A stretch of 33,420 nt of DNA from a virus. Of this stretch, positions 175 to 32,389 are shown piece after piece (the first letter of the stretch is position 1; each line of letters opens with the position of its first letter). Position numbers and translations under genes: made by a program. The stretch spans positions 1-33,420 of the IMG/VR virus record IMGVR_UViG_3300045934_000081; one strand, given 5' to 3'. The notes under the pieces are model-generated. The model made no database searches and was not told the origin of the DNA. It worked only from the letters and a program-made list of their open reading frames with translations.

Positions 175-588
175 TCATTCCTCGCTGTAGGTGCCATCAT
201 AGGGGCTGGGCTCATACGGCTCGGGGCTCAGCTCCTGCTCATGGACTGGGTAACCATCGAGGCCAGTAGCATGGGGCTCGGGCTTGTCGCCCTTGCCTCG
301 GTGCTGGGCCTGCTCGCGTGCGCTCTTGAGCTTGTGACAGTCGAGGCACAGGGGCTGCATGTTGCTGGGTATGTCATGGCCACCCATGTGCAGGGGCCTG
401 ATGTGGTCAAGCTCCTGGGCCTCGCGTACACAGTGCAAGGTACCGTCACCACCCTGCACATATCCTGCCTTGTCATGGGAGCATGTGCGAGCCCAGCACA
501 TACGGCATAGGGGCTCACGCAGTAGCATGCGCTTGCGCCTTGCTGCTGCTGCTCGGCCACGCTTACGGTGACTCAATGACTTAGCCAT
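175..588 (-). CDS. HNH endonuclease, packaging-associated
   Basis: This is a 137-residue HNH (His-Me finger) nuclease. A basic N-terminus (about residues 8-24, rich in Arg/Lys) precedes a zinc-binding Cys pair, C28 and C31. The HNH core follows: ELDHIRPLHMGG around 59-70, Asn76, and the second knuckle CLDCH (C81, C84, H85) with the typical KSARE ending. In many HK97-like phages an HNH protein encoded beside the terminase genes is needed with TerL for cos cleavage. The position at the end of the leftward gene string, next to TerS once the window is closed, fits that role. I chose the ATG at 588 because the family usually begins shortly before the basic stretch; the frame stays open to an ATG at 615. 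The C-terminal ~45 residues are acidic, Pro/Tyr-rich and probably disordered. Family call is firm; the packaging role is inferred. Confidence 0.85.
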   Translation of the reverse strand: MAKSLSHRKRGRAAAARRKRMLLREPLCRMCWARTCSHDKAGYVQGGDGTLHCVREAQELDHIRPLHMGGHDIPSNMQPLCLDCHKLKSAREQAQHRGKGDKPEPHATGLDGYPVHEQELSPEPYEPSPYDGTYSEE

Positions 589-857
589 GGTATGCAGTGG
601 TGCATGCGGGGGCACTGGGGTGCACCTGGGTGCAAATGCGCAGAGCTGCCCTGCTCTTGCTTCTGATTATGGGTGCATGCGGGTGCATCAGGGTGCAGCT
701 ATTGACTCGATGCTTTTTGGATTGCAGCATTCTTGCTGCCCCTGTACATGACATGAGCAGCGCCCTGGTCGGCGCCATGTAACAGCGCGTGTGAGCGCTG
801 ACGCGCAGCACGCTACTGACCTGAGCAGGGCGCATGTCGAGGCGCATAGATTCTAAG
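589..857. other. Gap between GT gene and HNH gene; repeats and hairpin
   Basis: I treat this stretch as mainly non-coding. It holds the two GGGTGCA triplet arrays (listed separately) and a hairpin at 783-800, where CAGCGC and GCGCTG flank a 6-base loop. A minus-strand frame runs from a GTG at 865 to a TAA at 581-583. It overlaps the stop upstream and the HNH start downstream, which is the overlap style of this genome. Its predicted 94 residues match nothing I know, and the downstream part is made of the heptamer repeats, which recur in a clearly intergenic place near 9.5 kb. A real small gene here cannot be excluded. Confidence 0.4.
608..697 (+). repeat. Two triplets of a GGGTGCA heptamer at 10-bp steps (left array)
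   Basis: GGGTGCA occurs at 618-624, 628-634, 671-677, 681-687 and 691-697, with a one-mismatch copy GGGGGCA at 608-614. This makes two groups of three. Units inside a group start exactly 10 bp apart, so all face one side of the helix. The groups are offset by 63 bp, and the ten bases before the second group are AT-rich (661-670). The same architecture in opposite orientation lies at 9514-9614. Likely binding sites for one multimeric protein: an origin iteron, an operator, or a terminase site. Confidence 0.85.
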
Positions 858-1613
858 CTAAGCACAGCGGCAAGCCTTCACCGTGTCACGCCACACAACG
901 TGCGCTTTCGCTGACAGCCCGAAACGGGTAACACGGTCCCACTGCTTACGCGAGCCTGCGAAAGTCCACAGCCTGGGCAGAGCAGGCCGGCGCCTGATGT
1001 CGCAGAGCTTCACCGCGTACTGATACACGCCATGGCTACGGTCAAGCAGCATAGGCGTGGGCGTTTGATGCGTATGACGCCACCAGCTAAGCCACGCCTG
1101 GTCACTGCCAATGATGTGCCTCGGGATAGCACGCACTGCGGCCAGCGTCATATTGTCCCAGGCACCCTGCAACACTCCGGGCTCACGCTGCCAAAGCACC
1201 GACGGGTTAAGCCTCGCTGACGCCGAGCGCAGGGCCTGCCATTTGATGGCCTCGGGCGGGCTCAACAGCGGCGACAAGTCGGCGACGGCCACGCTGTCCA
1301 TGTCAACTGACATGACCGGGCCGCTGACGCCGATGCTGTGCAGCCACTCAGCGTTGCACTGATTCATGCGCACCCAGCTGGCCATCGGCGTGCAGGGGCG
1401 TACCCCGCGCACACCAGCAAATGGGTCGGCAGGTAACTGCACCACGCCGTCGAGCAACGCCCGGCAGCATGCGTGTAGCTTCTGATCGGTCACGCACAGA
1501 ATGCGGCTGCCGTCAGGCAAGTGCTTGCGAAACAGGGCAGCCGATGCGTGCACGTCAGTCGATGTGTACACCGGGCGCCACCCGCGCCAGTACCATAGCA
1601 GCAGCGTCAGCAT
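858..1613 (-). CDS. Glycosyltransferase-like protein, GT-A type with DMD motif
   Basis: This 251-residue protein looks like a GT-A fold glycosyltransferase. It has a DxD metal/nucleotide-sugar motif (DMD, residues 104-106, in a hydrophobic strand followed by VADLSPLL) and a downstream IIGSDQAWLS motif (about 167-176). That motif resembles the acidic 'DQ' helix that follows the acceptor site in GT8-like enzymes. The gene two places upstream (1900-2730) has the same pair of motifs, LDMD...VADCEHLL and GSDQVLIS, so the two are probably divergent paralogues. Its start overlaps the stop of the preceding small gene by 7 bases (ATGCTGA). It is the last enzyme of the sugar island. No membrane segment or signal peptide is evident, so it should act in the cytoplasm. 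Donor and acceptor are unknown; host surface sugar, virion protein or DNA are all possible. Confidence 0.65.
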   Translation of the reverse strand: MLTLLLWYWRGWRPVYTSTDVHASAALFRKHLPDGSRILCVTDQKLHACCRALLDGVVQLPADPFAGVRGVRPCTPMASWVRMNQCNAEWLHSIGVSGPVMSVDMDSVAVADLSPLLSPPEAIKWQALRSASARLNPSVLWQREPGVLQGAWDNMTLAAVRAIPRHIIGSDQAWLSWWRHTHQTPTPMLLDRSHGVYQYAVKLCDIRRRPALPRLWTFAGSRKQWDRVTRFGLSAKAHVVWRDTVKACRCA

Positions 1614-1894
1614 AGCGGTCGGCCGTCATAGCGGTTGTGCAGCTCGACCAGCACGCCTTCGCGTATCACGCTCGGCAGCATGAAGCCCTGGTCAATCATG
1701 TGGGCCACCGCGTCGAATGCCTTTCGAGCTTCATCATAGGTCGGGTACAGCAACGGAATAAATTTCACGCTGCCGTCGGGGTTTGTGCTGTCGGTGACAA
1801 TCGGGCGCCTGGTCTCATGGTCAACCTGCCACAGCAAGCCCCAGCGACCGCATGGCGTGCGGCTCACGCACATGCAGACAAGTATGCTGTCCAT
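1607..1894 (-). CDS. Small hypothetical protein between two glycosyltransferases
   Basis: I do not recognise this 95-residue protein. Its N-terminus contains several Cys residues (MDSILVCMCVSRTPC), then a beta-rich stretch with GRWGLLWQVDHETRRP, then a predicted helix around YDEARKAFDAVAHMIDQGF. This could be a small alpha/beta domain. It lies between the two DMD-type glycosyltransferase genes and overlaps the start of the downstream one by 7 bases, so translation of the pair is probably coupled. The start is uncertain: the frame is open to a GTG at 1918, but the ATG at 1894 begins the Cys-rich stretch directly; neither has a strong ribosome binding site. It may partner or regulate the flanking enzymes; that is inference from position only. 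Confidence 0.55.
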   Translation of the reverse strand: MDSILVCMCVSRTPCGRWGLLWQVDHETRRPIVTDSTNPDGSVKFIPLLYPTYDEARKAFDAVAHMIDQGFMLPSVIREGVLVELHNRYDGRPLC

Positions 1895-1899
1895 GATGC

Positions 1900-2730
1900 T
1901 CAGCGAGTGACTAGCCACGGGTGCAGGCGCCTTGCTTTGTCAGTCCATGGTTGACACCCGGCACTAAACTGCACCAGGGCCGCGGTGTCAGGCAGCGCGG
2001 TGGTCTCCAGCGTGCCGCGGCGGTACACAGGCAGCTCACGCGCGCGCCATATTCCGGCCGTGTGGTGCCAAGTCGGCACGCCTTTGCCCAGGTACTGGCT
2101 GATGAGCACCTGGTCGCTGCCGGGGCGACGGTTTTGCGGGCGCCCATGTTCGCGCAGCTCTGCGGTGAAATCGGCCCACAGGTCGGGCACGCTGCCTGGT
2201 GTAAGCAGCATCATGCCGCCCGAGTAGGTGCTGAAAGTCCGATGCCAGCGTGACGCATCGGGGCGGCACTGTCCCGACATGAGCACCACCGGGGCAGTCT
2301 CATACCTGCCTCGCAGTAGGTGCTCGCAGTCGGCGACTGGCGCACAGTCCATATCTAGTTGCAGCACACGCTCAGGCAGCTCATGCATGCGCAGCGTGAT
2401 CGCAAAGGCCCGAGACCACGCCCACAGGCGCACGTAACACGGCGGGAATGACTGCCACACGCGGGGCCGCGCGGGGTCAACCATGCCCCACATGTGTGGC
2501 GGCACGCGCGGAGCTATGGCGAGCACTCGCGCCGGCTTGTGCTCGGCGCTCGCCATTCGCATGTGCAACGTCAGCAGCATGTCATAAATGTAGTCGCGCC
2601 GGCCGGGCTCGGTGAGCACCACAAACGCATGCGGTGGGAAGTACCGCGCGCAGCGCGCCATCAGCGCAGCAAGGCCGTCGGTGGGGTAAGCGCCCCAGCA
2701 CCACACCACAATGCACAGCTCGGGCGTCAC
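1900..2730 (-). CDS. Glycosyltransferase-like protein, GT-A type, paralogue of the 858-1613 product
   Basis: This 276-residue protein is a second GT-A type glycosyltransferase. The N-terminal IVVWCWGAYPTDGL stretch and the VVLTEP strand look like the start of a nucleotide-sugar binding fold. The DxD motif is DMD at about 126-128 (LQLDMDCAPVADCEHLL). A Gly-rich turn, YSGGMMLLTPGS near 169-180, matches the acceptor-side 'GG.m..' element of many GT8/GT32-like enzymes, and GSDQVLISQYLG lies at about 204-215. A conserved-looking HHTAGIW follows. I chose the GTG at 2730 because it forms a GTGA overlap with the TGA of the preceding gene, the usual junction here; a GTG at 2739 is also open. Together with the 858-1613 and 4795-5526 products it makes a three-glycosyltransferase island. 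Substrates cannot be read from sequence. Confidence 0.7.
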   Translation of the reverse strand: MTPELCIVVWCWGAYPTDGLAALMARCARYFPPHAFVVLTEPGRRDYIYDMLLTLHMRMASAEHKPARVLAIAPRVPPHMWGMVDPARPRVWQSFPPCYVRLWAWSRAFAITLRMHELPERVLQLDMDCAPVADCEHLLRGRYETAPVVLMSGQCRPDASRWHRTFSTYSGGMMLLTPGSVPDLWADFTAELREHGRPQNRRPGSDQVLISQYLGKGVPTWHHTAGIWRARELPVYRRGTLETTALPDTAALVQFSAGCQPWTDKARRLHPWLVTR

Positions 2731-3044
2731 AGCGGCCACCGCTCACCGCGTATGCCGTATTGCAGCTTGGCTCTGTCGCGTGCGTGCTCAATCGAGTCGG
2801 CCCATATCTCGCGCCAGGCTGCGCCCCATGGGGCCTTAAAGCCACCTTGCACAACAAAATAGCCGTAGGCTTTCACAAACCACGCGGCGCCATTCCAATG
2901 CACCATGTAGCGCTCGCCCTGCGTGAGCTTGTGGCAGCCTGGGTGTCTAAATGAGCTGCGCGTATTTCCCATTGCGCCGGCAGCGTCGGTGTACGCCAGC
3001 GGCAGCTCGCACAGCACGCACAGGTCAGGGGTGCGCTTCGCCAC
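2727..3044 (-). CDS. Hypothetical protein with possible zinc knuckle
   Basis: This 105-residue protein is unknown to me. It opens with a CVLCE pair (C9, C12) followed about 24 residues later by HPGCH (His and Cys), which together could bind one zinc. Its second half is aromatic and mixed alpha/beta (GERYMVHWNGAAWFVKAYGYFVV), ending in a basic helix near SIEHARDRAKLQYG. The start is a GTG at 3044 with an AGG element seven bases upstream, and the stop overlaps the next start as GTGA. It sits between the methyltransferase and a glycosyltransferase in the accessory island. It could be a small binding or adaptor protein; I would not assign a function. Confidence 0.6.
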   Translation of the reverse strand: MAKRTPDLCVLCELPLAYTDAAGAMGNTRSSFRHPGCHKLTQGERYMVHWNGAAWFVKAYGYFVVQGGFKAPWGAAWREIWADSIEHARDRAKLQYGIRGERWPL

Positions 3045-3050
3045 GTTTGC

Positions 3051-3728
3051 CTACTTTCGCCGACTCAGCCATGTGCGCTTGCCCGTCATGCAGCGTTTGC
3101 GGCTCGGTCTCACCAGCCATGACGTGTCGCGGAATACGCGGTCAGGGCAGCAAAACACTTCATGCACTGCGCGTATGACACCATAGCCGCGGCTCTGCGC
3201 AGTCGAAAAGTCATAGTCATGCCCTGCCATGATGCCGCCGCGTTTCAGTTTCGGCAGCCACGCTAGAATGTCCGCGCGCACCGATTTGTAATCGTGCGCC
3301 GCGTCGATGTACACCAGGTCAAGTGAATGGTCAGGGCAATCGGTGGCAGCCTTTACGGTGTCCTCTTTGCGCAAGTCTAAATGCCACATGGGCGGGTATA
3401 TCGACAGCGGCGCATCGACGCCGATGCCCTCCAGGTGCCGCTCGCGAATCAGGCGCATGCGCTCGCGAAAGGCCAGCTCCGCGCTGTTGTAGTCTCGCCA
3501 GTCATTATTTTTGCGGTGTCGGCCGGTCATACTGCGCCAAGCATCGACAGCGATGAGCGTGCTGGGCGCGAGCATGGCAATAAAAATCGCAGTTGACTCA
3601 CCAGCCCACACGCCAAGCTCGGCCATGCGCTCGACTTGCCCGTGGGTGTCATTGATGTACTCGCACAGCTCACGCAGGCCAACATCGGCAGCGCTGCCGC
3701 GCGCACGCATTTTGTGTGGTTCGCTCAT
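3051..3728 (-). CDS. Class I SAM-dependent methyltransferase (TylF / Methyltransf_24-like)
   Basis: This 225-residue protein has the elements of a Rossmann-fold methyltransferase of the type that O-methylates sugars. Motif I is ELGVWAGES at 37-45. The acidic strand end is IAVDAW around 59-64. The family signature LVYIDAAHDYKSVRADILAW spans about 138-157, followed by LKRGGIMAGHDYD (161-173), which supplies the metal-binding/catalytic acid and His region in TylF-like enzymes. It begins at an ATG at 3728; a TAGGAAA element overlaps the stop of the upstream PRTase gene. Genes of this class are common in host glycan clusters and in phage islands with glycosyltransferases, so methylation of a sugar made or attached by the neighbours is the best guess. 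DNA methylation is unlikely: no target recognition domain or NPPY/PC motif is seen. Confidence 0.8.
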   Translation of the reverse strand: MSEPHKMRARGSAADVGLRELCEYINDTHGQVERMAELGVWAGESTAIFIAMLAPSTLIAVDAWRSMTGRHRKNNDWRDYNSAELAFRERMRLIRERHLEGIGVDAPLSIYPPMWHLDLRKEDTVKAATDCPDHSLDLVYIDAAHDYKSVRADILAWLPKLKRGGIMAGHDYDFSTAQSRGYGVIRAVHEVFCCPDRVFRDTSWLVRPSRKRCMTGKRTWLSRRK

Positions 3729-3740
3729 GGGTCACTTTTC

Positions 3741-4577
3741 CTAGCCGCGCGGCCTGCCGCCGGCATACAGTCGCCAGTCAGCAGTGCAAAGCACGGGAAT
3801 GCCAGCAGCCGTGCTGATGTCGGCTGACTGGTCGGCCTCGGACTCAACAAACCAAAGCGCGCCGAGCGCTTTGGCCACCGATGACTTGTGCCCCACAACG
3901 CCCCCGACCGTGGCGTGGGCATCCTTGTCGGTGGGCATCATGTGCAGCGTGCGAGTCGGTATGCCCCACCTGCGCAGCCACGCCAGCGTCGCCGCCCGGT
4001 ACTTTTCCCGGCGCCCCGTCGCTATCGCGAGCGGTGCGTATGTCGGCACCACTAGCGGCACGGCGTCAAGCTCATCAATGGCCGCGCCCATTGGGAATAG
4101 CACGCCATCCATGTCGAGCACGGCTTGCTCAAGTCTGCGCTGGTGCGCCCAATTCCACGCGAATGCTGCGTAACGTGGAATGACGCGGGCGTACAGCAAG
4201 CCGGGAAACAGGCCGGGCGTGTCGGCCCGCACGTAGGCAGCCGCGAAGCGCACGGGCCTGTGCGGTCCCGAGTCTTTGACACGGCGCATGAGCTGCCGCA
4301 GCGTTGCGCCGGTAAGCACTGAATCCTCAATGACCACAACGTGGCCAGGTCCCATGCCGCGGCTGCCTCGCCGCAGCGGCTCAACGCTGTCGCCGCGCCA
4401 CAGCCATGGCAAGGGCAGCAGGTGCTTATTTAGGTGCAGTGCCAGCATGTTGGCGAGCAGGAGACCGCTGCGAGGCACACCGATGAATGCGGCAGCCTCG
4501 CGCAGCACTGGCTCGCGCATTGCCCATTCGGCCATATCGTCAGCAGCCTGCGCGTAGCTTACCCAGTGCATGCTCAC
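3741..4577 (-). CDS. Phosphoribosyltransferase-HAD phosphatase fusion
   Basis: This 278-residue protein joins two enzyme domains. The N-terminal half is a type I phosphoribosyltransferase: IGVPRSGLLLANMLA (32-46) looks like the pyrophosphate loop, and VVIEDSVLTGATL (81-93) is the PRPP-binding signature with two acidic residues and TGxT. The C-terminal half is HAD-like: VLDMDGVLF (153-161) is motif I with the nucleophile and acid/base aspartates, AIATGR (184-189) is motif II, K231 is the likely motif III lysine, and FVESEAD (243-249) the acidic motif IV. The start GTG at 4577 forms a GTGA overlap with the preceding gene; an ATG lies two codons inside. A PRTase coupled to a phosphatase could make or salvage a nucleotide, or build an activated sugar. 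Its place between a methyltransferase and a GT25 gene favours the sugar/nucleotide precursor idea, but this is inference. Confidence 0.75.
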   Translation of the reverse strand: MSMHWVSYAQAADDMAEWAMREPVLREAAAFIGVPRSGLLLANMLALHLNKHLLPLPWLWRGDSVEPLRRGSRGMGPGHVVVIEDSVLTGATLRQLMRRVKDSGPHRPVRFAAAYVRADTPGLFPGLLYARVIPRYAAFAWNWAHQRRLEQAVLDMDGVLFPMGAAIDELDAVPLVVPTYAPLAIATGRREKYRAATLAWLRRWGIPTRTLHMMPTDKDAHATVGGVVGHKSSVAKALGALWFVESEADQSADISTAAGIPVLCTADWRLYAGGRPRG

Positions 4578-4798
4578 TTTTTCCGCGGCCCGTATTCAAG
4601 CTCAAGCAGCAGGTCGATGAAGTGCCGCGCCTTGAGCAAGTCAGCCCGGCCGCCTTTGCGTCGGTGCCGGTGCACGTATTTGATTATGCAGCCCTCGCAA
4701 AAGCCCATTCCGTTGCTGACGATAAACTCTACCGGCTGAATGCCCGCGAGCTTGTAATGCTTGCCACCGACTTGGGTGCGCAGCGCGCTGCGCTTCAT
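4574..4798 (-). CDS. DUF3310 family protein
   Basis: This 74-residue protein matches the common phage family DUF3310. The hallmarks are VGGKHYKLAGIQPVEF near 10-25, FCEGCIIKYVHRHRRKGG near 33-50, and a DLLKARHFIDLLLEL helix at the end. The family occurs in many tailed phages and is sometimes annotated as a nucleotide kinase-like protein on weak grounds; its function is not established. Lys- and Arg-rich helices suggest nucleic-acid or nucleotide contact. I chose the ATG at 4798, which forms an ATGA overlap with the GT25 stop; the frame is open three codons further to 4807. The stop overlaps the PRTase-HAD start as GTGA, so the three genes are probably translationally coupled. Confidence 0.8.
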   Translation of the reverse strand: MKRSALRTQVGGKHYKLAGIQPVEFIVSNGMGFCEGCIIKYVHRHRRKGGRADLLKARHFIDLLLELEYGPRKK

Positions 4799-5526
4799 TC
4801 CTTCCACCGCACGTTAGGATTTGTCCGCGCTACGCCCCAGCCGGGCCTCGCCCTAAACGTGGTGCCGCTGCGGTCACTGCGGCCCACACGCTGATGTGCT
4901 AGCCAGCGGTGCCGCGGGCAAACCGCTCGCACCCGACCGCATGCCATAGCGCTGGCCACCACCTGGTCCTTGTTTTGCTTTCGGCCGGTGCGCCCAAGCT
5001 CACGCACGTAATTGAAATCATGCAGCAGCTCTGAGACTGCTGCGAGGCCGGCGCGGGTGAGTAGCCACGCATGGTGCATGGTGGTGTCGGTGCACACGTA
5101 AAAGCCCGGCGCAACGTCGCGCGGCTTTGCTTTGTGGTTGCCGCCGAGCATGAATACGTGGGGCACGTCACTGAGCTGCCCAAGCTCCAGCGCTTGCAGC
5201 ACTGCGCGCAAAAATTGCACGGTGCCTAGCACAAACGTCGAGTCAAACACTATGTCATCCTCAAGGATTAGCAGAGCGTCGGCGCGCTCGGCAAGTGCTC
5301 GGTCAATCTCACGCAGCTGCGTCATGTAGCATGACCAGCTGTGCTGCGTCAGGTCGATGCCGACGGGGGCGTGACAGTTTCGCGGCGGCATGCCCGTGAC
5401 GTATTCGGGCCGGCCGATTATTTCATGTATCGCGCGGTCACGTTGCAGCTGCTGCTCGAATAGCGCCCGGCGCATTCTCGCGTGCGGCATGGTCACAAAG
5501 ACTGTGCGCACTGGCAGTGTGGGCAT
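4795..5526 (-). CDS. Glycosyltransferase family 25-like protein
   Basis: This 243-residue protein resembles GT25 enzymes, such as LPS galactosyltransferases. It starts with a strand typical of the family (RTVFVTMPHARMRR, 7-20), followed by a GIDLTQHSWSCYMTQL segment (57-71) in the place where GT25 members have a conserved 'G..GC..SH...' stretch. LLILEDDIVF (85-94) carries the acidic motif. HHAWLLTRAGL (151-161) matches the 'ayliskkgA' segment of the family, and KDQVVASAM the late acidic helix. The ATG at 5526 overlaps the stop of the upstream membrane-protein gene as TGATG; an ATG nine bases upstream lacks a ribosome binding site. Likely cytoplasmic, adding a sugar to a host lipid-linked glycan or to a phage component. 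It is first of the sugar island in transcription order. Confidence 0.7.
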   Translation of the reverse strand: MPTLPVRTVFVTMPHARMRRALFEQQLQRDRAIHEIIGRPEYVTGMPPRNCHAPVGIDLTQHSWSCYMTQLREIDRALAERADALLILEDDIVFDSTFVLGTVQFLRAVLQALELGQLSDVPHVFMLGGNHKAKPRDVAPGFYVCTDTTMHHAWLLTRAGLAAVSELLHDFNYVRELGRTGRKQNKDQVVASAMACGRVRAVCPRHRWLAHQRVGRSDRSGTTFRARPGWGVARTNPNVRWKE

Positions 5527-5723
5527 CAGCTCCATGCGCGCAGCCACATGGTGATAAGGCCGCCGACGCTGCCGGCTATCGACACCAGGCTGGCGATTAG
5601 CACAACTGCGAGCCACAGGCTGCGGCGCCTTCGCGCTGCACGCTTCGGCGTCAGGTCCTCATGCGGGTTATAGCCGGTGCGCAGCACTAGAACATTGCCG
5701 CGCGGTGCGTCATGTCGGGTCAT
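5526..5723 (-). CDS. Small single-pass membrane protein
   Basis: This 65-residue protein has a basic N-terminal half ending in KRAARRRRS and one clear membrane segment, LWLAVVLIASLVSIAGSVGGLITMWL (about 37-62). The positive-inside rule puts the N-terminus in the cytoplasm. The gene has a strong ribosome binding site: AGGAGACCCCGACC directly precedes the ATG at 5723, a leader that recurs almost unchanged before the starts at 8270 and 24154. It overlaps the GT25 gene by one base (TGATG). It could anchor the glycosyltransferases at the membrane, in the manner of small proteins of phage serotype-conversion cassettes, but there is no sequence evidence for this and I do not recognise the family. 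Confidence 0.65.
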   Translation of the reverse strand: MTRHDAPRGNVLVLRTGYNPHEDLTPKRAARRRRSLWLAVVLIASLVSIAGSVGGLITMWLRAWS

Positions 5724-6667: not shown

Positions 6668-7852
6668 TTACTCCTGCGTCAGTGAGTCCAAGTGATCGGC
6701 CCAGCGCTGTAGCATTTCCTTGCGCTGGGGCAGCAGGTGTGCACGATTGTACACGCCTTTGACGCCCGGCACTGCGTGCGCCAGTGCCATTTCGATAACG
6801 TCGCTCGATTCTCCCATTTCATGCAGCAGCGTGCTTGCCGACGCTCGGAAGCCATGCGGCTGCTGCACACCTGCGAGGCCCGCGGCCTTGAGGCCCGAGC
6901 GTAGGGTGCTGTCGCTGACTTTCGCGAACACTCGCGCATCGGCTGCCGGCTCGCTCGCTCCGCGCAGCTCGCGCAGCATGGCCACCACTTGCGTGGGCAT
7001 CGGTATGACGTGCTCTTTGCGCATTTTCGTGCGCTCGGCAGGCACGCGCCACATGCCGCCCTCCAGGTCAATCTCGCCCCAGGTGGCCAAGCACAGCTCA
7101 TTAGGCCGCGGGAACACGGCGGCCAGTATGCGCAGCGCGATATGCACCGGGCGGGCGAGGCCGGCACGCTCGATGGCTTGGAGCACTCCGCGCATTGCAT
7201 CCTGAGTGGTGGCGCCGAGCCGGTGCTGTTTCGAGTGCTTGGGCTTGGGCAGCTTGACGGCCTGCGCCGGGTCGAATGGCACCAGGCTTGTGGCCATGGC
7301 GTGTGCGAACACATGACGCAGAGCTTGCAGGCCCTTTTTTGCGGTCTCATGCCCACGCTCAAGCACTGACTTGCTCGCCGCGTGCACGTCGGCTGCCGTG
7401 ATGTCGCGCACCGGCTTGCCTGTGCCGATGGCGGCCACGTAGTAACCCAGGGCGCGGCTGTATGCGTCGCGGGTGCCGGCGCTCAGTTTGTGCTCATCGG
7501 CGTACTGCGCATACGTGCCCGGCGCGTAGTCACCGAGCAGCACCGCGCGCATGGCCTCGACCACTGCCTGTTTGCGCATGGCTGACGGGTCGATGCCCTG
7601 GGCGAGCTGCCGGCGCATGTCGATGTGGCGCTCGCGCGCCTCGGACAGCGTGACGGTCGGGTACTCGCCAAGCCCCAGCATGTTGGCACGGCCGTTGAAA
7701 CGGTAGCGGTAGTACCAGGAGCGTGCGCCAGTGGGCGACACGCGCAGCGCGAGGCCGCGGCCGTCGGCTACCAGGTAGGGGCGGCCCAGGGGCTTGCTCG
7801 CGCGTATTTTGGCGTCGGTCAGTTTCATGGCTATGTGTCCGGTGGTATTCAT
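6668..7852 (-). CDS. int: Tyrosine integrase, P4 type
   Basis: This 394-residue site-specific recombinase would integrate the phage genome into the host chromosome. The N-terminus has the DUF4102-type arm-binding domain: KLTDAKIRASKP (10-21), LVADGRGLALRVSPTGARSWYYRYRF, and an LGLGEYPTVTLSEAR segment. A SAM-like core-binding domain follows (about 105-200). The catalytic set is complete: R249 in VFPRPNEL, K276, H333 and R336 in HGFR, H359 in LAHAVP, and the nucleophile Y368 in GVYNRA. The usual family ending, RKEMLQRWADHLD, is present. The start at 7852 is the first ATG; the ATG at 7828 (MKLTDAK) is equally plausible. The gene lies behind a promoter region with a perfect CRP-type palindrome. 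No tRNA 3' end is visible beside it, so the attachment core is not located. Confidence 0.93.
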   Translation of the reverse strand: MNTTGHIAMKLTDAKIRASKPLGRPYLVADGRGLALRVSPTGARSWYYRYRFNGRANMLGLGEYPTVTLSEARERHIDMRRQLAQGIDPSAMRKQAVVEAMRAVLLGDYAPGTYAQYADEHKLSAGTRDAYSRALGYYVAAIGTGKPVRDITAADVHAASKSVLERGHETAKKGLQALRHVFAHAMATSLVPFDPAQAVKLPKPKHSKQHRLGATTQDAMRGVLQAIERAGLARPVHIALRILAAVFPRPNELCLATWGEIDLEGGMWRVPAERTKMRKEHVIPMPTQVVAMLRELRGASEPAADARVFAKVSDSTLRSGLKAAGLAGVQQPHGFRASASTLLHEMGESSDVIEMALAHAVPGVKGVYNRAHLLPQRKEMLQRWADHLDSLTQE

Positions 7853-9497: not shown

Positions 9498-9513
9498 AGC
9501 CCCCCGCACTGCA

Positions 9514-9614
9514 TGCACCCCCATGCACCCACCTGCACCCTATTATTTTGTCTCCTAGCTAGGCAGGCCGCCCGAGCCGCACCTGGTGCACCCCCATGCA
9601 CCCACCTGCACCCT
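9514..9614 (+). repeat. Two triplets of TGCACCC at 10-bp steps (right array)
   Basis: TGCACCC starts at 9514, 9524, 9534 and again at 9587, 9597, 9607. The two groups are contained in a perfect 28-bp direct repeat (9514-9541 and 9587-9614) offset by 73 bp. On the minus strand the unit is GGGTGCA, the heptamer of the left array (608-697). Here too an AT-rich stretch (9541-9550) borders one group. The array lies in a gene-free region just upstream of the 9428 operon. It fits an origin or an operator read by a multimeric protein. Confidence 0.9.
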
Positions 9615-25235: not shown

Positions 25236-25486
25236 GCGCTGTGCTCCAGGGTGGTGACCACTTGGCCACCCATTTGTACCTTAGTCTCAAGTATCAGCAC
25301 ACGGTCAGCGAGCTTGCGCAGCTCTTGCCGCACGCGCCGCAGCTCGGCCGTGCCGGCCTCGGCTGCTTGCTTAGCCTGCAAGGCGTCGGCTTTGATGCCG
25401 CCTACTGTCCACACCACAGCGACCACGCTCGAAAGCATGGTGAGCAGCGGCGTGAGCAGCGGCGCGAATACTGCCAGGCTGTCCAT
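25232..25486 (-). CDS. Small membrane-anchored coiled-coil protein
   Basis: This 84-residue protein has an N-terminal hydrophobic stretch LAVFAPLLTPLLTMLSSVVAVVWTVGGI (4-31) and then a coiled coil (QAKQAAEAGTAELRRVRQELRKLADRVLILETKVQM). It lies between the portal gene and the connector gene with TGATG and ATGA overlaps, so it belongs to the head operon. The one-helix-plus-coil layout is shared by many phage proteins annotated as putative inner-membrane spanins or holin partners, but a virion or assembly role fits the place as well. Undecided. Confidence 0.6.
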   Translation of the reverse strand: MDSLAVFAPLLTPLLTMLSSVVAVVWTVGGIKADALQAKQAAEAGTAELRRVRQELRKLADRVLILETKVQMGGQVVTTLEHSA

Positions 25487-27063
25487 CAGGCGCGCGCCTT
25501 CGGCTGCTTGCCGCGGGCCGCGAACATGGCCCAGCTGCGCGGGTCATCGCCCGGCGGCCCTGCGGCGCCTTCGGCGATTGCAAGCCAGGTGCTGCCATGG
25601 TGGTGCACCAGGCTGCCGCATGCGTATGCAGTGCCCTGCACGTAGGTGCCACACCAGCGCATCGGCACCGACTGCTCACCGATGCGCAGCTCGCCCTCGG
25701 GCTCATCCTCGGCAGGAGCTGGCGCAGGGGGCGCAGCGGTCCCGAATGGGTCAGGCTGCGCGCTGCGCTTGGCCAAGTCGGCCAGGCTGAAATTTTGCTG
25801 CTGCAAGTATGGCGAGTCACCACCGAGCACCGGCATTAGGCCAAGCTCCGCGCGGGCCTCATTGGGGGCGAGTATGCCGCCGCCGACGCCTGCGCTGTAA
25901 TACTCTACGCGCGCCTGCGGGTCGAATGCGAGCAGGCCCATGGGGTCATGCTCGATACGGTCACGCGCCCGGCGCTCACCGAGAATGCCGCCGGTCAGGA
26001 GCTGCGCCATTTGCGTTAGTATGGGCTGCAACGTCGAGCTGTAATAGTGCTGCATTGCTATGCCCAAGGCGTCGCCGGCTGGCGCCGTCGCCGCACCGAT
26101 GAGCCACGCCGGCACGCCGAATGCGCGCGCAACGTCCTCGGCGCCAAACTTGGCCAAGTCGATGAGCTGCGCGTCACGCGCGCTGCGCGAGACCAGCTCA
26201 AACTTAAAATTACTCCCAAGCACCGCGACGCCCTTGCGGTTTTCATTCGAGCCGCCGCCGAATTTAGTGAGCCATCGGCCGGCCATTTCATCGGCCTGCT
26301 GCTGGTTGATTTCCTCGGGGCCAGTGATGACGCCGAGCGGCACGGCCTGAGCGTCGAGCAGCGCGCCCAGTTTCATGGTGGCGCTGTTGCCGGCCGGCAG
26401 GAGCGGACTGCTGCCGCATAGGGGGGAGCTAAGCGGCAAATAGCGGTGCGCCAAAACCTGCTCGGCCGGCACCAGCACATCGGACACCAGCCCATTTAGC
26501 GCGTCGGCTTTGAGCTGGTAAAACAAGTCGCCGGTCTCCTGGGAGACTCGCTCGCGGACCAGGCCGGGGTCGAGCACGTATGCGGCATCGACGTTGCCCA
26601 GCTCATCGCGGCGCAGTAGCACGTAGGCGACGCCATGCAAGAGCAGCGACACCACCCAGCTGACTAGGAAATCAAACAGGGTTTGATAGTGATTCGGCCG
26701 GCGCAGCCATGCATCAAACTGCACGTCAGTGCGCGGCAGCCATATTGTGTAGTTTCGCGCAGCAATGGCGCGCGTGGTCGGCGTCACGGTGCGCAGCGGC
26801 AGCTTTGCTATGTCGAAAGCCAGCTGGCGCACGCAGGCGTAAACGGGCGAATGCGTAAGCATTTCGAGCGCAGTAAGCGGCGTCAAGTCTCGCGACAGCA
26901 CGGGGTACTGGAAAAGGACATGCCAGCCACTGCCACTCATGCTGCTCGGGAAAGCCTGCTCGACAAGCACGGCGCGTGGTGCGGTGGTAGCTGGCACAGG
27001 GACTGGGGCGCCTTGACGGCGCCCCAGTTTGAGCAGCCACCGAAACGGGTTCGGTAGCTTCAT
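25486..27063 (-). CDS. Portal protein, HK97 type, with C-terminal carbohydrate-binding-like domain
   Basis: This 525-residue protein is the portal through which DNA enters the head. Family features: SGSGWHVLF near 43-51, LEMLTHSPVYACVRQLAFDIAKLPLR (65-90), WVVSLLLHGVAYVLLRRDELGN, VISGPEE-like GVITGPEEINQQQADEMAGRWLTKFGG, FELVSRSARDAQLIDLAKFGAEDVARAFGVP, and YYSSTLQPILTQMA. After residue ~440 the sequence is Ala/Pro-rich, then about 468-517 forms a CBM5/12-like domain: MRWCGTYVQGTAYACGSLVHHHGSTWLA, ending PPGDDPRSWAMFAARG. HK97 portals normally end near 420 residues, so this is an extension. The gene lies after the capsid gene; it usually lies before the protease. Confidence 0.9.
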   Translation of the reverse strand: MKLPNPFRWLLKLGRRQGAPVPVPATTAPRAVLVEQAFPSSMSGSGWHVLFQYPVLSRDLTPLTALEMLTHSPVYACVRQLAFDIAKLPLRTVTPTTRAIAARNYTIWLPRTDVQFDAWLRRPNHYQTLFDFLVSWVVSLLLHGVAYVLLRRDELGNVDAAYVLDPGLVRERVSQETGDLFYQLKADALNGLVSDVLVPAEQVLAHRYLPLSSPLCGSSPLLPAGNSATMKLGALLDAQAVPLGVITGPEEINQQQADEMAGRWLTKFGGGSNENRKGVAVLGSNFKFELVSRSARDAQLIDLAKFGAEDVARAFGVPAWLIGAATAPAGDALGIAMQHYYSSTLQPILTQMAQLLTGGILGERRARDRIEHDPMGLLAFDPQARVEYYSAGVGGGILAPNEARAELGLMPVLGGDSPYLQQQNFSLADLAKRSAQPDPFGTAAPPAPAPAEDEPEGELRIGEQSVPMRWCGTYVQGTAYACGSLVHHHGSTWLAIAEGAAGPPGDDPRSWAMFAARGKQPKARA

Positions 27064-27066
27064 TGG

Positions 27067-28446
27067 CTAAGCACTCTCGGGGTAGTACAGGGCCGACTCG
27101 ACATGCTTGACGGCGCCGCTGCGACGCTTGGCGAAGTTCACCGAGCGCACGGCCTTGATGGCCACGGCGTGAGTCTGGAACATGTTTACCGGGACCTGGG
27201 CGAGGGCGATGCTGGTCGGCGTGATGATTTCGCCGGCCGGGCTGTCGCTCATTTCGATGGTTGCCTCGCGGGAAAGCGCAACCTCGATGCTCGGGTCATC
27301 AATGCGATACACGTCGCCGGGCTTCGCGAGAATGAGGCGCCCTGCCTCGACGTTGTGGCCGGTGAATACCGGGTAACCCTCCAACGTGCCGCCCGTGGCG
27401 CTGATCGCCGGGAACGCGCGCACGTCGAATTCATTGCGCAGCGAGGCGAGCTGTAGCGCGAGGCCGGGATTCATCACCCAGGCCAAGCCTTCCTCATTCT
27501 TTTCGCTGATGAATGCGTTGATGAGCGCAAAAATGTCCGCGCGAGCGCCTGCGATGCCTGCGCCGGCCGTCGCGATGGGCGCGACGCCTGCGAGCAAGCC
27601 GGCCGGGCTGACCGTGGGCACGGCCGCGTCATCGCCAAAGGCCGTTGTATCGACCACCTGGCGCAGAGCTTCCACCAGTGCGTCGCGCACCAGCAGCTCG
27701 CCGCTCGGGTCGGCACGTCGCAGCCATTCCTCGGAAATGACCGTGAGGCCGGCAACCTTGAGCGTGGTCAACTGCACCGATAGGAAATCGAGCGCACTGA
27801 CCGGAATGCCCTTGCCTTGGCCAACCCAGTAACCCGTCGCCGCGCCATCCTGGCCTTTGATGAGTATATCGGTCGGCACCTGCCGGAAGCCAATGCGGTC
27901 GAAAATGGTGCGGCTGTACAGGAATTCGATGAAGTCATTACGCGCGCGCGTATCGTACTGCACCAATTCCTCGCCCCACGCCGGGTTTGTGCCTTCGAGG
28001 CCGAGCCCGCCGCCGCCGACCGTGGCCTGAATCCACTTGACCAGGTTCGGGTGCGACTTGCCCCAGCGCTGATGCGCGATGACCGCGGGGCCGCCCGCGT
28101 CGGGGTTGCGCTGCGACTCCAGGCGCGCGATGACCATGCGCACGAATGACTGGCCTTGCCATTTGTCATCCGGGTCTTTGCGCACGATTGTCGGCGCAGG
28201 CGCTCTGCGCTGGTCGGCAATCGGCGCCGCCGTCGCGGCTTGCGCTCGCATCGCGGTCTCGATATTGGCAATTTGGCGCTCGACGCCGGCCAGCTCCGCG
28301 GCCCAGCCGTCATGCGCGGTTTGCTCGGCCTCGGTCAAGGCGCGCGCGCCCTGCTCGGTTACCGTGCCTTCGAGCTGGGTCTGCATCGCTGCGGCCAGCT
28401 CGGTTTTGCGGGCGCGATACTGCGCCAGCAATTCGGAAAGTGTCAT
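27067..28446 (-). CDS. Major capsid protein, HK97 fold
   Basis: This 459-residue protein is the capsid precursor. An N-terminal delta/scaffold-like domain, helical and charged (LSELLAQYRARKTELAAAMQTQ; ALTEAEQTAHDGWAAELAGVERQIANIETAM), spans about 1-95. The HK97 core follows, including LVVSEEWL-like AGLTVISEEWL, NEFDVRAFPAISATGGTLEGYPVFTGHNVEAGRLILAKPGDVYRIDD, and the C-terminal NMFQTHAVAIKAVRSVNFAKRR. The protease gene just upstream suggests that the N-terminal domain is cleaved after assembly. The ATG at 28446 has AGGAGC eight bases upstream and follows the protease stop by one base. Confidence 0.92.
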   Translation of the reverse strand: MTLSELLAQYRARKTELAAAMQTQLEGTVTEQGARALTEAEQTAHDGWAAELAGVERQIANIETAMRAQAATAAPIADQRRAPAPTIVRKDPDDKWQGQSFVRMVIARLESQRNPDAGGPAVIAHQRWGKSHPNLVKWIQATVGGGGLGLEGTNPAWGEELVQYDTRARNDFIEFLYSRTIFDRIGFRQVPTDILIKGQDGAATGYWVGQGKGIPVSALDFLSVQLTTLKVAGLTVISEEWLRRADPSGELLVRDALVEALRQVVDTTAFGDDAAVPTVSPAGLLAGVAPIATAGAGIAGARADIFALINAFISEKNEEGLAWVMNPGLALQLASLRNEFDVRAFPAISATGGTLEGYPVFTGHNVEAGRLILAKPGDVYRIDDPSIEVALSREATIEMSDSPAGEIITPTSIALAQVPVNMFQTHAVAIKAVRSVNFAKRRSGAVKHVESALYYPESA

Positions 28447-28447
28447 G

Positions 28448-29029
28448 CTACTTGCTCCTGAATGGTGAACGAATGAGCAGCGGGGCACCGAGCGGTGCAG
28501 TGACTGCGGGCGCGTGCTGCGAGACCGCGCCCGAGTCGAGGCCGGCGGCCACTAGCGAAACTTCTACTAGCGACCACTGGCGGAAAATTGGGAAGCCCTC
28601 GGAGTCATCGAAGCTCGCGAAGTCGGGCACAAAACCGACCGACACGGCCGGGAGCAGGCCCTGCATGTAGCGGGCCATTGCGTCGGCGTAACGGGCGTGC
28701 CACGCGGTGGCCTCGCCCTCGGGCGGCACAAAGTGGGCGGCAAAAGCCACGTCATCGTCACTCTGCGTGAGAGTGTCAACAATGCCAAGCGGCGTATCAT
28801 GCGCGTGCTCGGCGAGCAGCAGCACGGTCTCAGCGCCGCGCTGCATGCCGCGGGGGTCGAGGCCATAGCCGCCGTGATTCTTGCCCTTTGTCATGGCAGT
28901 GCCGGCGACGGTGGCCGGGGCCTTGCCGTCGGTGGCCACAAACTGCTGCATGGGCTTGCCCGTGGAAAAGTCGAGCAGCAGGATAGCCGGCGAGTGCCGG
29001 CGAATAATCGCATTCTGAATCAGCAGCAT
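28448..29029 (-). CDS. Prohead maturation protease, S78 (HK97 gp4) type
   Basis: This 193-residue serine protease has the family triad region: AEHAHDTPLGI (73-83, candidate His77), LLPAVSVGFVP (125-135, candidate Ser130), and QWSLVEVSLVAAG (151-163, candidate Glu156). It would cut the capsid delta domain and itself during maturation. The ATG at 29027-29029 with AGGAG about 10 bases upstream is preferred; the frame continues further upstream, but that part lies in the preceding virion gene. It directly precedes the capsid gene, the usual order, but follows two virion-protein genes where the portal would be expected. Confidence 0.92.
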   Translation of the reverse strand: MLLIQNAIIRRHSPAILLLDFSTGKPMQQFVATDGKAPATVAGTAMTKGKNHGGYGLDPRGMQRGAETVLLLAEHAHDTPLGIVDTLTQSDDDVAFAAHFVPPEGEATAWHARYADAMARYMQGLLPAVSVGFVPDFASFDDSEGFPIFRQWSLVEVSLVAAGLDSGAVSQHAPAVTAPLGAPLLIRSPFRSK

Positions 29030-29042
29030 TTTGGGCGTGCTC

Positions 29043-29873
29043 CTAAGCAGTGGGGCCGAATACCACAACATCATGAGGCACAGCTGTGCCGCCGTCGGCC
29101 TCATCGAAAATCGAATGGTGGCGATACTGGAAACTGTTTGACAGTTTGGAAATGATTTGCGCACTGTGCACACGCCCGTCATTGATGTGCGGCGACGGGG
29201 CGGGCACGTGGTATGCAGTGGTGCCGAATCCGTGCGTTACTTGGAATACCCCGCTGCCCAGGTAGCTGGTTGACCAGGCGCCAGGGAATCCCACGTTACT
29301 GCCATCGGCAGCGACAACGGCGCGGTAAACCGGCGCCGATGTCTCAAGCAGCTCGGCCAGGTCATCCTCGACCACGCCAAGGTCGGCAGCTATCGCGCTG
29401 ATTTGCGCTTGCTGCGCGGTAAGCGTGGGCTCAATGGCCTCAATGATTGCCGTCACGGGTACGCCAATGATGACATCGGACCATATACGCTCCTGCCCGC
29501 CACCGAATGCGCGAATGCGGTAAGTGCCGGGAGCTGCGTAGAATCGCGCGTAACCGTGCGAGTCTGCCGTAAACGGATTTGACAGCGCGACGGTGCCGGC
29601 GCGATTGCTGTAGATTGCGACCAGGCCGTTAGTGTCGGCGTTGCGTACCTCGACGCCCGCGCCCGGCACCACGTTGCCCAGCTCATCGGTGATGGAGCTT
29701 TGCCAAATAAACACAATGTCGCCCTCGGGTGGTGGGGGTAGCAGCTGCGAGCCTGACGGCGCCGACAGCCATTGAGTGGTGAACACTGCGGGCTCGCCGC
29801 CGTGCATCAGATTGCCGATAAGCTCCGACGGGTTAAGCGGGAAGTCTAAGTCAGGTGATCCCAGGAACGGCAT
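29043..29873 (-). CDS. Tail-fibre-like virion protein
   Basis: This 276-residue protein has a carboxypeptidase-regulatory-like beta domain common in phage fibres: SITDELGNVVPGAGVEVRNADTNGLVAIYSNRAGTVALSNPFTADSHGYARFYAAPGTYRIRAF (about 60-123), a 'G..v.l.nP.taD..G.a.fy...G.Y.i' pattern. A short helical coil ATLTAQQAQISAIAADLGVVEDDLAELLE (about 145-174) could trimerise it, and the C-terminus is beta-rich with His. It is a probable receptor-contacting or head-surface fibre. Its location between TerL and the prohead protease is unusual; fibres generally follow the tail-tip genes. Confidence 0.7.
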   Translation of the reverse strand: MPFLGSPDLDFPLNPSELIGNLMHGGEPAVFTTQWLSAPSGSQLLPPPPEGDIVFIWQSSITDELGNVVPGAGVEVRNADTNGLVAIYSNRAGTVALSNPFTADSHGYARFYAAPGTYRIRAFGGGQERIWSDVIIGVPVTAIIEAIEPTLTAQQAQISAIAADLGVVEDDLAELLETSAPVYRAVVAADGSNVGFPGAWSTSYLGSGVFQVTHGFGTTAYHVPAPSPHINDGRVHSAQIISKLSNSFQYRHHSIFDEADGGTAVPHDVVVFGPTA

Positions 29874-29880
29874 TAGAGTG

Positions 29881-30774
29881 CTACTCCCAAAGCATCGCCA
29901 TGCGCAGCTCGGTATTTACGCCAGTCTGCGCGCTGAAATTTCCTGAGCGCTCGTGCATCACCAGGAACGTGCGAGCGGTAGCGCCGACCATCGCCACAGA
30001 GAACGTGCTGCCCTCAGCCGCCTCGGTCTCACGCACTCCGCACACGTAAGCAAGCGGCTCGACGCGCGGCGTGATTGTGTACCCGAGCATAGCTTGCGGG
30101 TCAGAGCCTACCACCGTCGAGCTTTGTGCCTGCGGATTCATGCCCAGCGCTGCGTCGGTGATATTGGTCTGCGCAGTATATGCCGCGGCCGGCGACGCGT
30201 ACCTAAACGCCTGCCGCTTGGTCAATGAGCTGTTGATGCCTGAGCCCCAGTGCGCCATCGCGCCCACAGCGGTGGGCTCGCCGTCGGCGTCGCAGGTGCG
30301 GCAAATAAAGAATGAGCCGACGTTGGCGTTACCGTCCTGTACTTTCCAATTCAGCCCAAAAAAGCCCTCATTGGCGGAAAAGTAAGATTGCTTAGCAGTG
30401 TCAGAAGTCTCGCCGACGCCGAAGGTTGCGATGTTTGCGATTGTGCTCAGAGCTGTGCCGCCTAGAACGCCTGAGCCGTTTGTGCTCGTGCCCACTGTCA
30501 CCTGCACACGCGGGTTAGTTGCGCCGCCGGCTGTGCCGAATCCAAAACGAATGTAAATAGGCGCAGTGCCGTGCAATGCGTCATTCAGGTGGAACACTGC
30601 GTAGCCACCCTCGGTATTTGAGCCGGGGCGAGCGCCTGCGCCGGGGGTTATGTTTGTCTCATCGGCGGCAAGCTCAGTAAGAGCACCGAGCCGGGTTATA
30701 AACTCGTCACGCCATTCCTGCCACGTCGCGTCAGAGTCGTGACGTACTCGCGTGCTCCAGCTCTGTGTGCTCAT
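29881..30774 (-). CDS. Putative virion structural protein
   Basis: This 297-residue protein is Gly/Ala/Thr/Ser-rich with few Cys and looks like a beta-rich structural protein: YAVFHLNDALHGTAPIYIRFGFGTAGG, NPRVQVTVGTSTNGSG, FFGLNWKVQDGNANVGSFFICRTC, MLGYTITPRVEPLAYVCGVRE and the final FLVMHERSGNFSAQTGVNTELRMAMLWE. The N-terminus is helical (TWQEWRDEFITRLGALTEL). Similar proteins appear beside fibre-like genes in proteobacterial phages, often without a function. Placed immediately before the fibre-like protein, it may form a partner adhesin, a head fibre base or a decoration protein. No enzyme motif is seen. Confidence 0.6.
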   Translation of the reverse strand: MSTQSWSTRVRHDSDATWQEWRDEFITRLGALTELAADETNITPGAGARPGSNTEGGYAVFHLNDALHGTAPIYIRFGFGTAGGATNPRVQVTVGTSTNGSGVLGGTALSTIANIATFGVGETSDTAKQSYFSANEGFFGLNWKVQDGNANVGSFFICRTCDADGEPTAVGAMAHWGSGINSSLTKRQAFRYASPAAAYTAQTNITDAALGMNPQAQSSTVVGSDPQAMLGYTITPRVEPLAYVCGVRETEAAEGSTFSVAMVGATARTFLVMHERSGNFSAQTGVNTELRMAMLWE

Positions 30775-30781
30775 GCTTGCA

Positions 30782-32389
30782 TCATCCTAGTATGACCTTT
30801 GCCCCTGACTCGTTTTCGGCGATACCGCGGGCCATTGTCAGTGCCACCATGCCGTCGATTCTGCCGCGGCTGCGCTGCTTGTCTAGCTTGCGGTTGTTCG
30901 CATCGGTGCCGGTGACTCTCGCATTTGCCGAGCACATAGTCAACACGGGGTGCTTACCATGGGCAAGGCGCCCATTTAGGGCGTCGGTCTCCAGCACCCG
31001 CAAGGCCGGCGACATGCTTGCTGTGCCTTGGCCAAACGGCAGGAAACGGGTGTCAATTTGATGCTGGGAAAAGCCCGCAACCTTGAGCCACGGGCGCAGG
31101 TGCGGCATGGCCCAGCGGTCGAATGCGCACATAAACTGGTTGCGGCGCCACAGCCCAAACAGCCAGGCGGCCACGTAGCTATACTCGATGGCCTTGCCTG
31201 GCGTGGTGAGCAGGTGGCCTTGCTCGTGCCACACCGCATAAGGCGCTCGGTCACGCAGCCCGCGCTCGCGCAGCGGGGGCTCACTCGGCAGCCAGAATGT
31301 CGGCAGCACTTGCCACACGCCGAGCAGGTCATAAATGGCGACGCACGCAGTTAGGTCAGCGACTGCCGACAAGTCGAGGCCCAGGAATAATTTTGTACCG
31401 GGCGGCGCCGCCTTCGGCGCGGCGCCACAACTGTCCCACACTTCCCGCGCGATAAATGGCACCGTTGCATCGGTGCGCTGATTCAGCACTAGGTTGCGAT
31501 AGGATGCAGCGGCCGACGGTGAACGCTTAGCCTTGTCGGCTTGCAGTCGCAGCTCGGTTATATTCTGCGTGCCCTCATGCATGTCGGGATACGCGAGCTG
31601 CAATGCCTCATCGCTGTACAGGTCGATGGGTGAGCCGTCGGCGCGTTTTTCCGGGCAGTATTCGAGCATGATGACCGTATCGGGTGACGGGCTTTCTTGC
31701 GCGGTGTCGATGATTTGCGATAGCAAGTCTGCGTCACTCGCGGCCTGCGTGGAAATGATGAGCGACAGCGGGCGCTCTTGCGCCAGCGTCGCAGTCTCCA
31801 GCGCGTCATACAGCTCGCTGGTCGGCCCTTTCACTTGCCCCAGCTCATCATGCACCAGGAAACACGGCCCGAGACCGTATTTAGTTTTGGCCTCTTTTGA
31901 CAGCGCCTTGTAGGTGGTGCCCAGCTCGGTGCAGTGTATTTCCTTGCGGCTCGACCGCACCGTGCACCATGCGTCAAGCTCGGGCGACATGCGAAGCATT
32001 TGCTCGGCGTACTTGTAGACTATGGCGGCCTGGTCACGCGACTGCGCGGAGCTGTACAGCTCACCGTTTCGCACGGCCTCGGGGCCGACCAAGTGCAGCA
32101 GCACGAGCATGGCGGCGAATGGCGTTTTGCCACGCTTGCGCGCGATGCTAATGACTGCGGTGCGCACGTAACCCTCATCAGGGTAAGCAGCATGCATGAA
32201 GCGCCGCTGCCACATGCGCAACCTGAGACGGCGGCCGACATGCTTGCCGCCGGGCACGCGCAGGTGTCGCTCAATCCACTCGACGTTGCGCAGAGCCCGA
32301 GCCGATACGCGCACATCGGCCGGCAGCGAGCACAGCGAGCGCTCGGCCTGCTGGGCCTCGGTCTCGGTCACTGGCGTGGTGCTTTCCAT
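30782..32389 (-). CDS. terL: Terminase large subunit, HK97/P27-associated type
   Basis: This 535-residue packaging motor has an N-terminal ATPase and a C-terminal nuclease. Walker A is SIARKRGKT (96-104, the 'aRK.GKT' variant). Walker B is CFLVHDELGQ (about 180-189), followed by the coupling segment LSLIISTQA. The RNase H-like nuclease shows LFLGLDLSAVADLTA (first Asp) and RGRIDGMVALTMA (last Asp). The N-terminal LRLRMWQRRFMH matches the adenine-binding region of the family. It cuts concatemeric DNA and pumps it through the portal. It overlaps the HTH gene by 22 bases and its ATG has an AGGA element close upstream. Confidence 0.93.
   Translation of the reverse strand: MESTTPVTETEAQQAERSLCSLPADVRVSARALRNVEWIERHLRVPGGKHVGRRLRLRMWQRRFMHAAYPDEGYVRTAVISIARKRGKTPFAAMLVLLHLVGPEAVRNGELYSSAQSRDQAAIVYKYAEQMLRMSPELDAWCTVRSSRKEIHCTELGTTYKALSKEAKTKYGLGPCFLVHDELGQVKGPTSELYDALETATLAQERPLSLIISTQAASDADLLSQIIDTAQESPSPDTVIMLEYCPEKRADGSPIDLYSDEALQLAYPDMHEGTQNITELRLQADKAKRSPSAAASYRNLVLNQRTDATVPFIAREVWDSCGAAPKAAPPGTKLFLGLDLSAVADLTACVAIYDLLGVWQVLPTFWLPSEPPLRERGLRDRAPYAVWHEQGHLLTTPGKAIEYSYVAAWLFGLWRRNQFMCAFDRWAMPHLRPWLKVAGFSQHQIDTRFLPFGQGTASMSPALRVLETDALNGRLAHGKHPVLTMCSANARVTGTDANNRKLDKQRSRGRIDGMVALTMARGIAENESGAKVILG

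Follow-up and report, generated by a model that had tools for sequence, protein, structure and literature searches.

Glycosylation of the virion is a kind of modification already known in phages. The virions of mycobacteriophage Che8 carry glycans on the capsid and the tail tube; its glycosyltransferase genes are reported to be responsible, and glycosylation of the capsid is said to require gp110 (in the passages of PMC12363180 and PMC12619734 that cite Freeman 2023). The end of the Che8 genome encodes a fusion of a family 2 glycosyltransferase (GT2) with a TylF/Methyltransf_24 domain, a GT2, a GT25 enzyme (PF01755, E 1e-7), a small protein and an HNH endonuclease, while in Firecracker a methyltransferase, two glycosyltransferases (GTs) and a GT25 gene follow each other between portal and protease. 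A second relevant system is the synthesis of bacterial polysaccharides containing ribofuranose. There, two-domain enzymes combine a glycan phosphoribosyltransferase (PRTase), which transfers ribose-5-phosphate from phosphoribosyl pyrophosphate (PRPP), with a HAD phosphatase that takes off the phosphate group (PMC11127046, PMC11231755, PMC10299916). Likenesses to both are found in a gene island on the minus strand of virus record IMGVR_UViG_3300045934_000081, the complete 33,420 bases of which are the window analysed here. The island is very probably dedicated to glycan modification, and the proposal that it is a late virion-glycosylation module with a ribose-adding PRTase-HAD fusion has, taken as a whole, an even chance of being correct. 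Its enzymes are the following.

858-1613, minus strand: GT-A1, a further GT-A glycosyltransferase belonging to the GT-A2 family (homology to a GT of Tetraselmis viridis virus S20; DxD and GSDQAWLS motifs)
1900-2739, minus strand: GT-A2, GT-A-fold, GT8-like glycosyltransferase (homology to the S20 GT; AlphaFold model)
3051-3728, minus strand: S-adenosylmethionine-dependent methyltransferase of the Methyltransf_24 type, probably an O-methyltransferase (PF13578, E 2e-17)
3741-4577, minus strand: fusion of an N-terminal PRTase and a C-terminal HAD phosphatase, proposed PRPP-dependent glycan ribosyltransferase (PF00156, profile matches, conserved residues)
4795-5616, minus strand: GT25-like putative glycosyltransferase, 273 amino acids from a GTG start that may be internal (sub-threshold PF01755, EDD motif)

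The PRTase-HAD fusion is apparently the new part of the module. Its PRTase portion matches PF00156 with E 8e-6 and 25.6 bits, just below the cut-off of 26.3, and its HAD portion resembles polynucleotide kinase (PNK) phosphatases (phrog_415, E 1e-5); in profile comparisons the fusion matches purine PRTases (1vdm, E 1e-10) and the PNK-type phosphatase Pnkp1 (E 0.001). The catalytic residues of both domains are intact, D85 and G90 of the PRPP loop and D155xD157, T187xR189, K231 and E245 of the HAD domain being invariant in 19 homologues. The structural model is of moderate quality only (predicted local distance difference test, pLDDT, 72). Several proteins of uncultured Caudovirales labelled ‘prohead protease’ in BFVD also match this model, apparently via a HAD-like domain.

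The neighbourhoods of relatives of the fusion are recurrent. No full-length PRTase-HAD was found in 50,697 sequenced phage records with either the window protein or that of contig L075 as query; with the L061 protein, the one match in these records was a fragment of a PNK HAD in phage Molivia. Direct scans of viral contigs, made with the fusion and with the DNA polymerase of the window, gave no hit. A scan with a four-sequence alignment detected the fusion in 20 viral loci of uncultured phages and in three Sphingomonas/Sphingopyxis prophages. A PRTase-HAD - GT2 - GT-A cassette is present in 15 of the 18 loci that are distinct after removal of duplicates, and in 14 of these it has head genes in its vicinity, although the counts are biased because three of the four seeds of the alignment already adjoined GTs. 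The linkage to GTs and head genes is conserved in other phages. In the other three distinct loci the fusion is accompanied by GT17, a sulfotransferase and methyltransferases (L075 and L077), by domains of a CmcI-like methyltransferase, a nucleotide-sugar transferase and a mannose-6-phosphate isomerase (L076), or by a gene of the Methyltransf_24 type that adjoins head-tail genes (L078). L075, L076 and L077 are low-GC contigs of large phages with glycan clusters. Less biased than the seeded viral scan is a hidden Markov model (HMM) search of 385 genomes of the bacterial class concerned, which yielded five further chromosomal loci. Three of them have a clear polysaccharide context, with GDP-mannose dehydratase, GT4, Wzz, Bac_transf and UDP-glucose dehydrogenase genes as neighbours; L111 has a probable one and L112 none. 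L112 apart, the gene is found in glycan-synthesis loci, as are those of the characterized ribosylating enzymes. At L110 (7805-8812), the Sphingomonas chromosomal gene lies between exopolysaccharide genes and what looks by eye like a lasso-peptide cluster (asparagine synthase, ABC transporter).

The two GT-A enzymes claimed by the initial annotation are borne out. The annotated GT of S20 is similar to GT-A1 (blastp E 5e-9) and GT-A2 (E 2e-11), and homologues of the pair occur at about 50 other phage or viral loci. Neither gives a Pfam match alone; an HMM of the GT-A family recognizes GT-A1 with E 6e-50, a value to be read with GT-A1 itself being part of the model. The AlphaFold model of GT-A2 (pLDDT 82; predicted template modelling score, pTM, 0.85) finds its nearest folds in the Protein Data Bank (PDB) in glycogenin, LgtC and UGGT (E about 1e-8), and a search of the PDB with the family profile likewise arrives at glycogenin (E 7e-6). 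As judged from sequence and predicted fold, both are GT8-like GT-A glycosyltransferases with a DxD motif. Enzymes of the glycogenin, LgtC and UGGT types are retaining, and two of them, glycogenin and UGGT, have protein substrates. GT-A1 and GT-A2 are deeply diverged from each other, and the family tree, with its long branches, places neither. In 37 of the 55 GT-A loci a head, packaging or connector gene of the same orientation lies no more than 4 kb away. The recurrent order is large terminase subunit (TerL), protease, major capsid protein (MCP), a family designated f5, GT and portal, the GT often standing between MCP and portal, and the TerL, MCP and portal proteins of these loci belong to the same sequence families as those of the window. 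In Citrobacter phiNP a sialyltransferase-GT immediately precedes the small terminase subunit (TerS), and at other loci the clusters also include TylF (E 5e-37), GT9 and additional methyltransferases. The families of the island are linked in related phages, which the initial annotation had set as a check on its reading, but the GT-A gene is often also solitary (L013-L016, L023, L024, L032, L059), so that this expectation holds in part only.

The methyltransferase carries the YIDAAHDY/GHDY motifs of Methyltransf_24 and no DPPY motif. Of the earlier TylF/Methyltransf_24 label the second half stands, PF13578 being the only family matched in the Pfam search, which gave no match to TylF (PF05711). 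The label ‘DNA methyltransferase’ of phrog_2675 was rejected for this gene on the basis of its motifs. Its relatives adjoin GT-A or PRTase-HAD genes in L012, L017, L069, L073 and L078. The GT25-like protein scores 14.2-14.5 bits against PF01755 (E 0.03-0.04; gathering threshold 24). A single blastp comparison with Che8 gp110, a GT25 enzyme, gives E 0.002, and the similarity to the gp110 family is weak in hhalign (score 27.4 versus a maximum of 19.9 in 20 shuffles; probability 11%). No relatives of this protein were detected in the viral contigs or phages scanned, nor among the cluster families by hhalign.

On these grounds, the island would act as a late-expressed module for glycosylation of the virion, with the capsid or the tail tube as acceptor. 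The GT8-like enzymes, possibly together with the GT25-like protein, would assemble a short glycan on one of the structural proteins, with host UDP-sugars as donors; the PRTase domain would then move ribose-5-phosphate from PRPP onto this glycan, the HAD domain would strip the 5-phosphate so that ribofuranose remains, and O-methylation of the product by the Methyltransf_24 enzyme would cap or tailor the glycan. Ribosylation is the simplest proposal for the fusion because it has the same domain pair as glycan ribofuranosyltransferases and GTs as neighbours; that it is a PRPP-dependent ribose-adding enzyme is predicted with even or slightly better than even confidence. The initial annotation had envisaged a dedicated route making and attaching a methylated sugar. 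The dedication to glycans is retained, the methylated group would be a sugar, and the making is dropped, as no nucleotide-sugar biosynthesis gene was found; none is needed, since host UDP-sugars and PRPP would suffice.

Comparison with the described systems delimits what is shared. With the Che8 (gp108-gp110)/Corndog cluster the island has in common clustered GTs, a methyltransferase domain of the sugar type and a GT25 or GT25-like protein; these adjoin HNH at the end of the genome as in Che8, while those of Firecracker lie among head genes. At least two GTs are clustered by the HNH/terminase end, and the succession of integrase, island and HNH/presumed cos end/terminase is that of Che8. The island differs in having GT8-like GT-As and PRTase-HAD and no GT2 and in the weak similarity of its GT25-like protein; homologues of its GT-As were not found among Che8 gp108-112. 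GTs with GT25 and HNH also occur together in prophiFVLQ01-1 (in the order GT, methyltransferase, GT25, small protein, HNH, TerS, TerL), TChen, SaltyDalty and Rabbitrun, two of the four continuing into TerS/TerL, and Corazon has a similar layout. In S20 a homologous GT-A is found with several GT or sialyltransferase-like and methyltransferase genes between MCP and a head-closure gene, that is, inside the head operon, and PRTase-HAD is not annotated there. With gPRT-PRP enzymes (Kelly 2022; ORF5 of the Klebsiella pneumoniae O4 locus; Bcs3, CriT-CrpP, of Haemophilus influenzae type b), which use PRPP, the fusion shares a PRTase fold and a HAD phosphatase with its catalytic residues in one polypeptide and an occurrence in glycan-synthesis loci. 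It is, however, much smaller, with a PRTase that has a classical PRPP loop and stands near purine PRTases, and with a PNK-like HAD domain, which is C-terminal, whereas that of Bcs3 is N-terminal.

As to the target, which the initial annotation had left between lipopolysaccharide (LPS) and virion, the evidence points to the virion as the probable one of the two: cassettes of homologous genes lie between those for capsid and portal, and the layout is like that of Che8. The strongest alternative is modification of LPS, given that the phage is temperate, having an integrase gene, and that the island adjoins this gene. By lysogenic conversion, the enzymes would act in the host cytoplasm on LPS or another surface glycan, and superinfection would be blocked or the receptor of the phage altered. 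In Chlobot, the same GT-A gene stands between those for integrase and tail fibre, and the GT25, GT8 and PRTase-HAD families also serve LPS or capsule synthesis. The island shares with Gtr modules for O-antigen conversion that they are glycosyltransferases of temperate phages, but family searches found no GtrA flippase, GtrB or GT-C membrane component in it and all its enzymes look soluble; therefore conversion of the Gtr type is less likely, and the position of homologous cassettes within head-gene operons, where prophage expression is not expected, makes lysogenic conversion in general unlikely. Far less probable still is hypermodification of the phage DNA, with GTs, PRTase-HAD and methyltransferase decorating its bases. 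Phage GTs can glycosylate DNA (Pyle 2024, as named in a passage of PMC12619734), the HAD domain is PNK-like and the methyltransferase matches phrog_2675, a family labelled DNA methyltransferase; but a DNA-base target, considered less likely from the outset, is disfavoured because the scanned open reading frames (ORFs) contain no hydroxymethylase, thymidylate synthase-like or other base-modifying gene and the methyltransferase lacks a DNA-methyltransferase motif, and relatives of the island genes cluster with head rather than replication genes.

The PRTase-HAD fusion could also be an enzyme of nucleotide salvage or nucleoside production (a purine PRTase joined to a 5′-nucleotidase), linked to GTs by chance or by late expression. 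This would suit its nearest relatives, XGPRT and other purine PRTases for one domain and PNK phosphatases for the other, and its position next to a DUF3310 gene, a domain occurring with phage nucleotide kinases. This reading is nevertheless rather improbable, because the fusion is repeatedly linked to GTs and methyltransferases, both in distant phages (L075-L078 included) and in chromosomal polysaccharide loci, and because the phage cassettes examined lack any salvage theme. Several points weigh against virion ribosylation itself, besides the bias of the cassette counts. The island is outside the head cluster and adjoins the integrase, a place also taken by lysogenic-conversion genes. No homology to characterized gPRT/PRP enzymes (Bcs3, the T. 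composti enzyme) is among the matches listed, the domain order is opposite to that of Bcs3, and the folds that come closest are those of purine PRTases and PNK phosphatases. The tandem PRTase-HAD pair of L112 (7539-9549) stands in an alphaproteobacterial chromosome with no glycan genes nearby. The GT25 label, given earlier to 4795-5616, stays weak at a sub-threshold PF01755 score and slight gp110 similarity, and virion glycosylation and the enzyme activities are predictions.

A wider proposal can be made tentatively, with somewhat less than even confidence: that PRTase-HAD represents a new class of PRPP-dependent glycan ribosyltransferases, built independently from purine-PRTase-like and PNK-like HAD domains, which would put (methylated) ribofuranose on capsids together with GT2 and GT8-like enzymes in uncultured phages and Sphingomonad prophages, and which would also be present in alphaproteobacterial polysaccharide loci. 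In the literature searched, no description of PRTase-HAD within virion-glycosylation genes was found. If correct, phage particles would gain a cheap pentose, PRPP being present in every cell and no sugar-nucleotide pathway being required; a compact ribosyltransferase of 280 residues would become available for glycan engineering; and PRTase-HAD beside GTs in head operons would mark glycosylated virions outside the actinobacteriophages, from which proof has come so far.

The island enzymes belong to a train of minus-strand genes, overlapping or nearly so (5616-4795, 4807-4574, 4577-3741, 3728-3051, 3044-2727, 2739-1900, 1918-1607 and 1613-858), every one of which is called coding by a codon model trained on the record. 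The overlapping leftward block of the initial annotation is thereby confirmed with all its named genes, PRTase-HAD and DUF3310 included by family matches (PF00156, just under its cut-off, phrog_415 and PF11753), its limits being better set at 858-5616 than at 858-5526. Its GC content is that of the remaining record, and consensus scans gave no minus-strand promoter above chance and no minus-strand terminator inside the island. The other genes of the train and two that provide its context are as follows.

175-615, minus strand: HNH endonuclease by the genome end (PF01844, E 7e-9; like the Che8 gp112 HNH, E 2e-7)
1607-1918, minus strand: small protein of 103 amino acids (ORF call), no family match in Pfam or PHROG
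2727-3044, minus strand: small protein of 105 amino acids (ORF call), no significant family in Pfam or PHROG and no relative among the cluster families
4574-4807, minus strand: DUF3310 protein, probably a passenger (PF11753, E 8e-11; phrog_236, E 7e-21), no link to glycans found
6668-7852, minus strand: tyrosine integrase, bounding the island (PF13356, PF00589)

The phage is a temperate siphovirus, with no close relative among sequenced phages by megablast, and all genes judged real are on the minus strand across the window. In the direction of the genes, small terminase-region genes are followed by TerL (30782-32389), two proteins, the protease/MCP region, portal and tail genes, and then by helicase-primase, PolA-like polymerase, integrase, small ORFs, island and HNH. 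Contig L002, 93% identical, terminates at the same base as the right end of the window (33420 being position 1 of L002). In HK97, too, an HNH gene lies at the genome end. Cos ends are proposed because L002 and the window, two independent contigs, share this end base, with HNH at the opposite end as in Che8 and HK97, which suggests that the window is a complete linear genome.

The head order at 25486-32389 (TerL, two proteins, protease-like, MCP, portal), with portal downstream of MCP, is also seen in L013, L015, L059 and others. The two proteins (276 and 297 amino acids, 29043-30774) between TerL and the protease/MCP region are conserved in L002, one of them having a weak polysaccharide-deacetylase PHROG match (E 0.004); they are possibly capsid decoration proteins and glycan carriers. 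Short repeats based on CATGCACCCACCTGCACCC occur at 9504-9614 of the window, in a gap between early genes.

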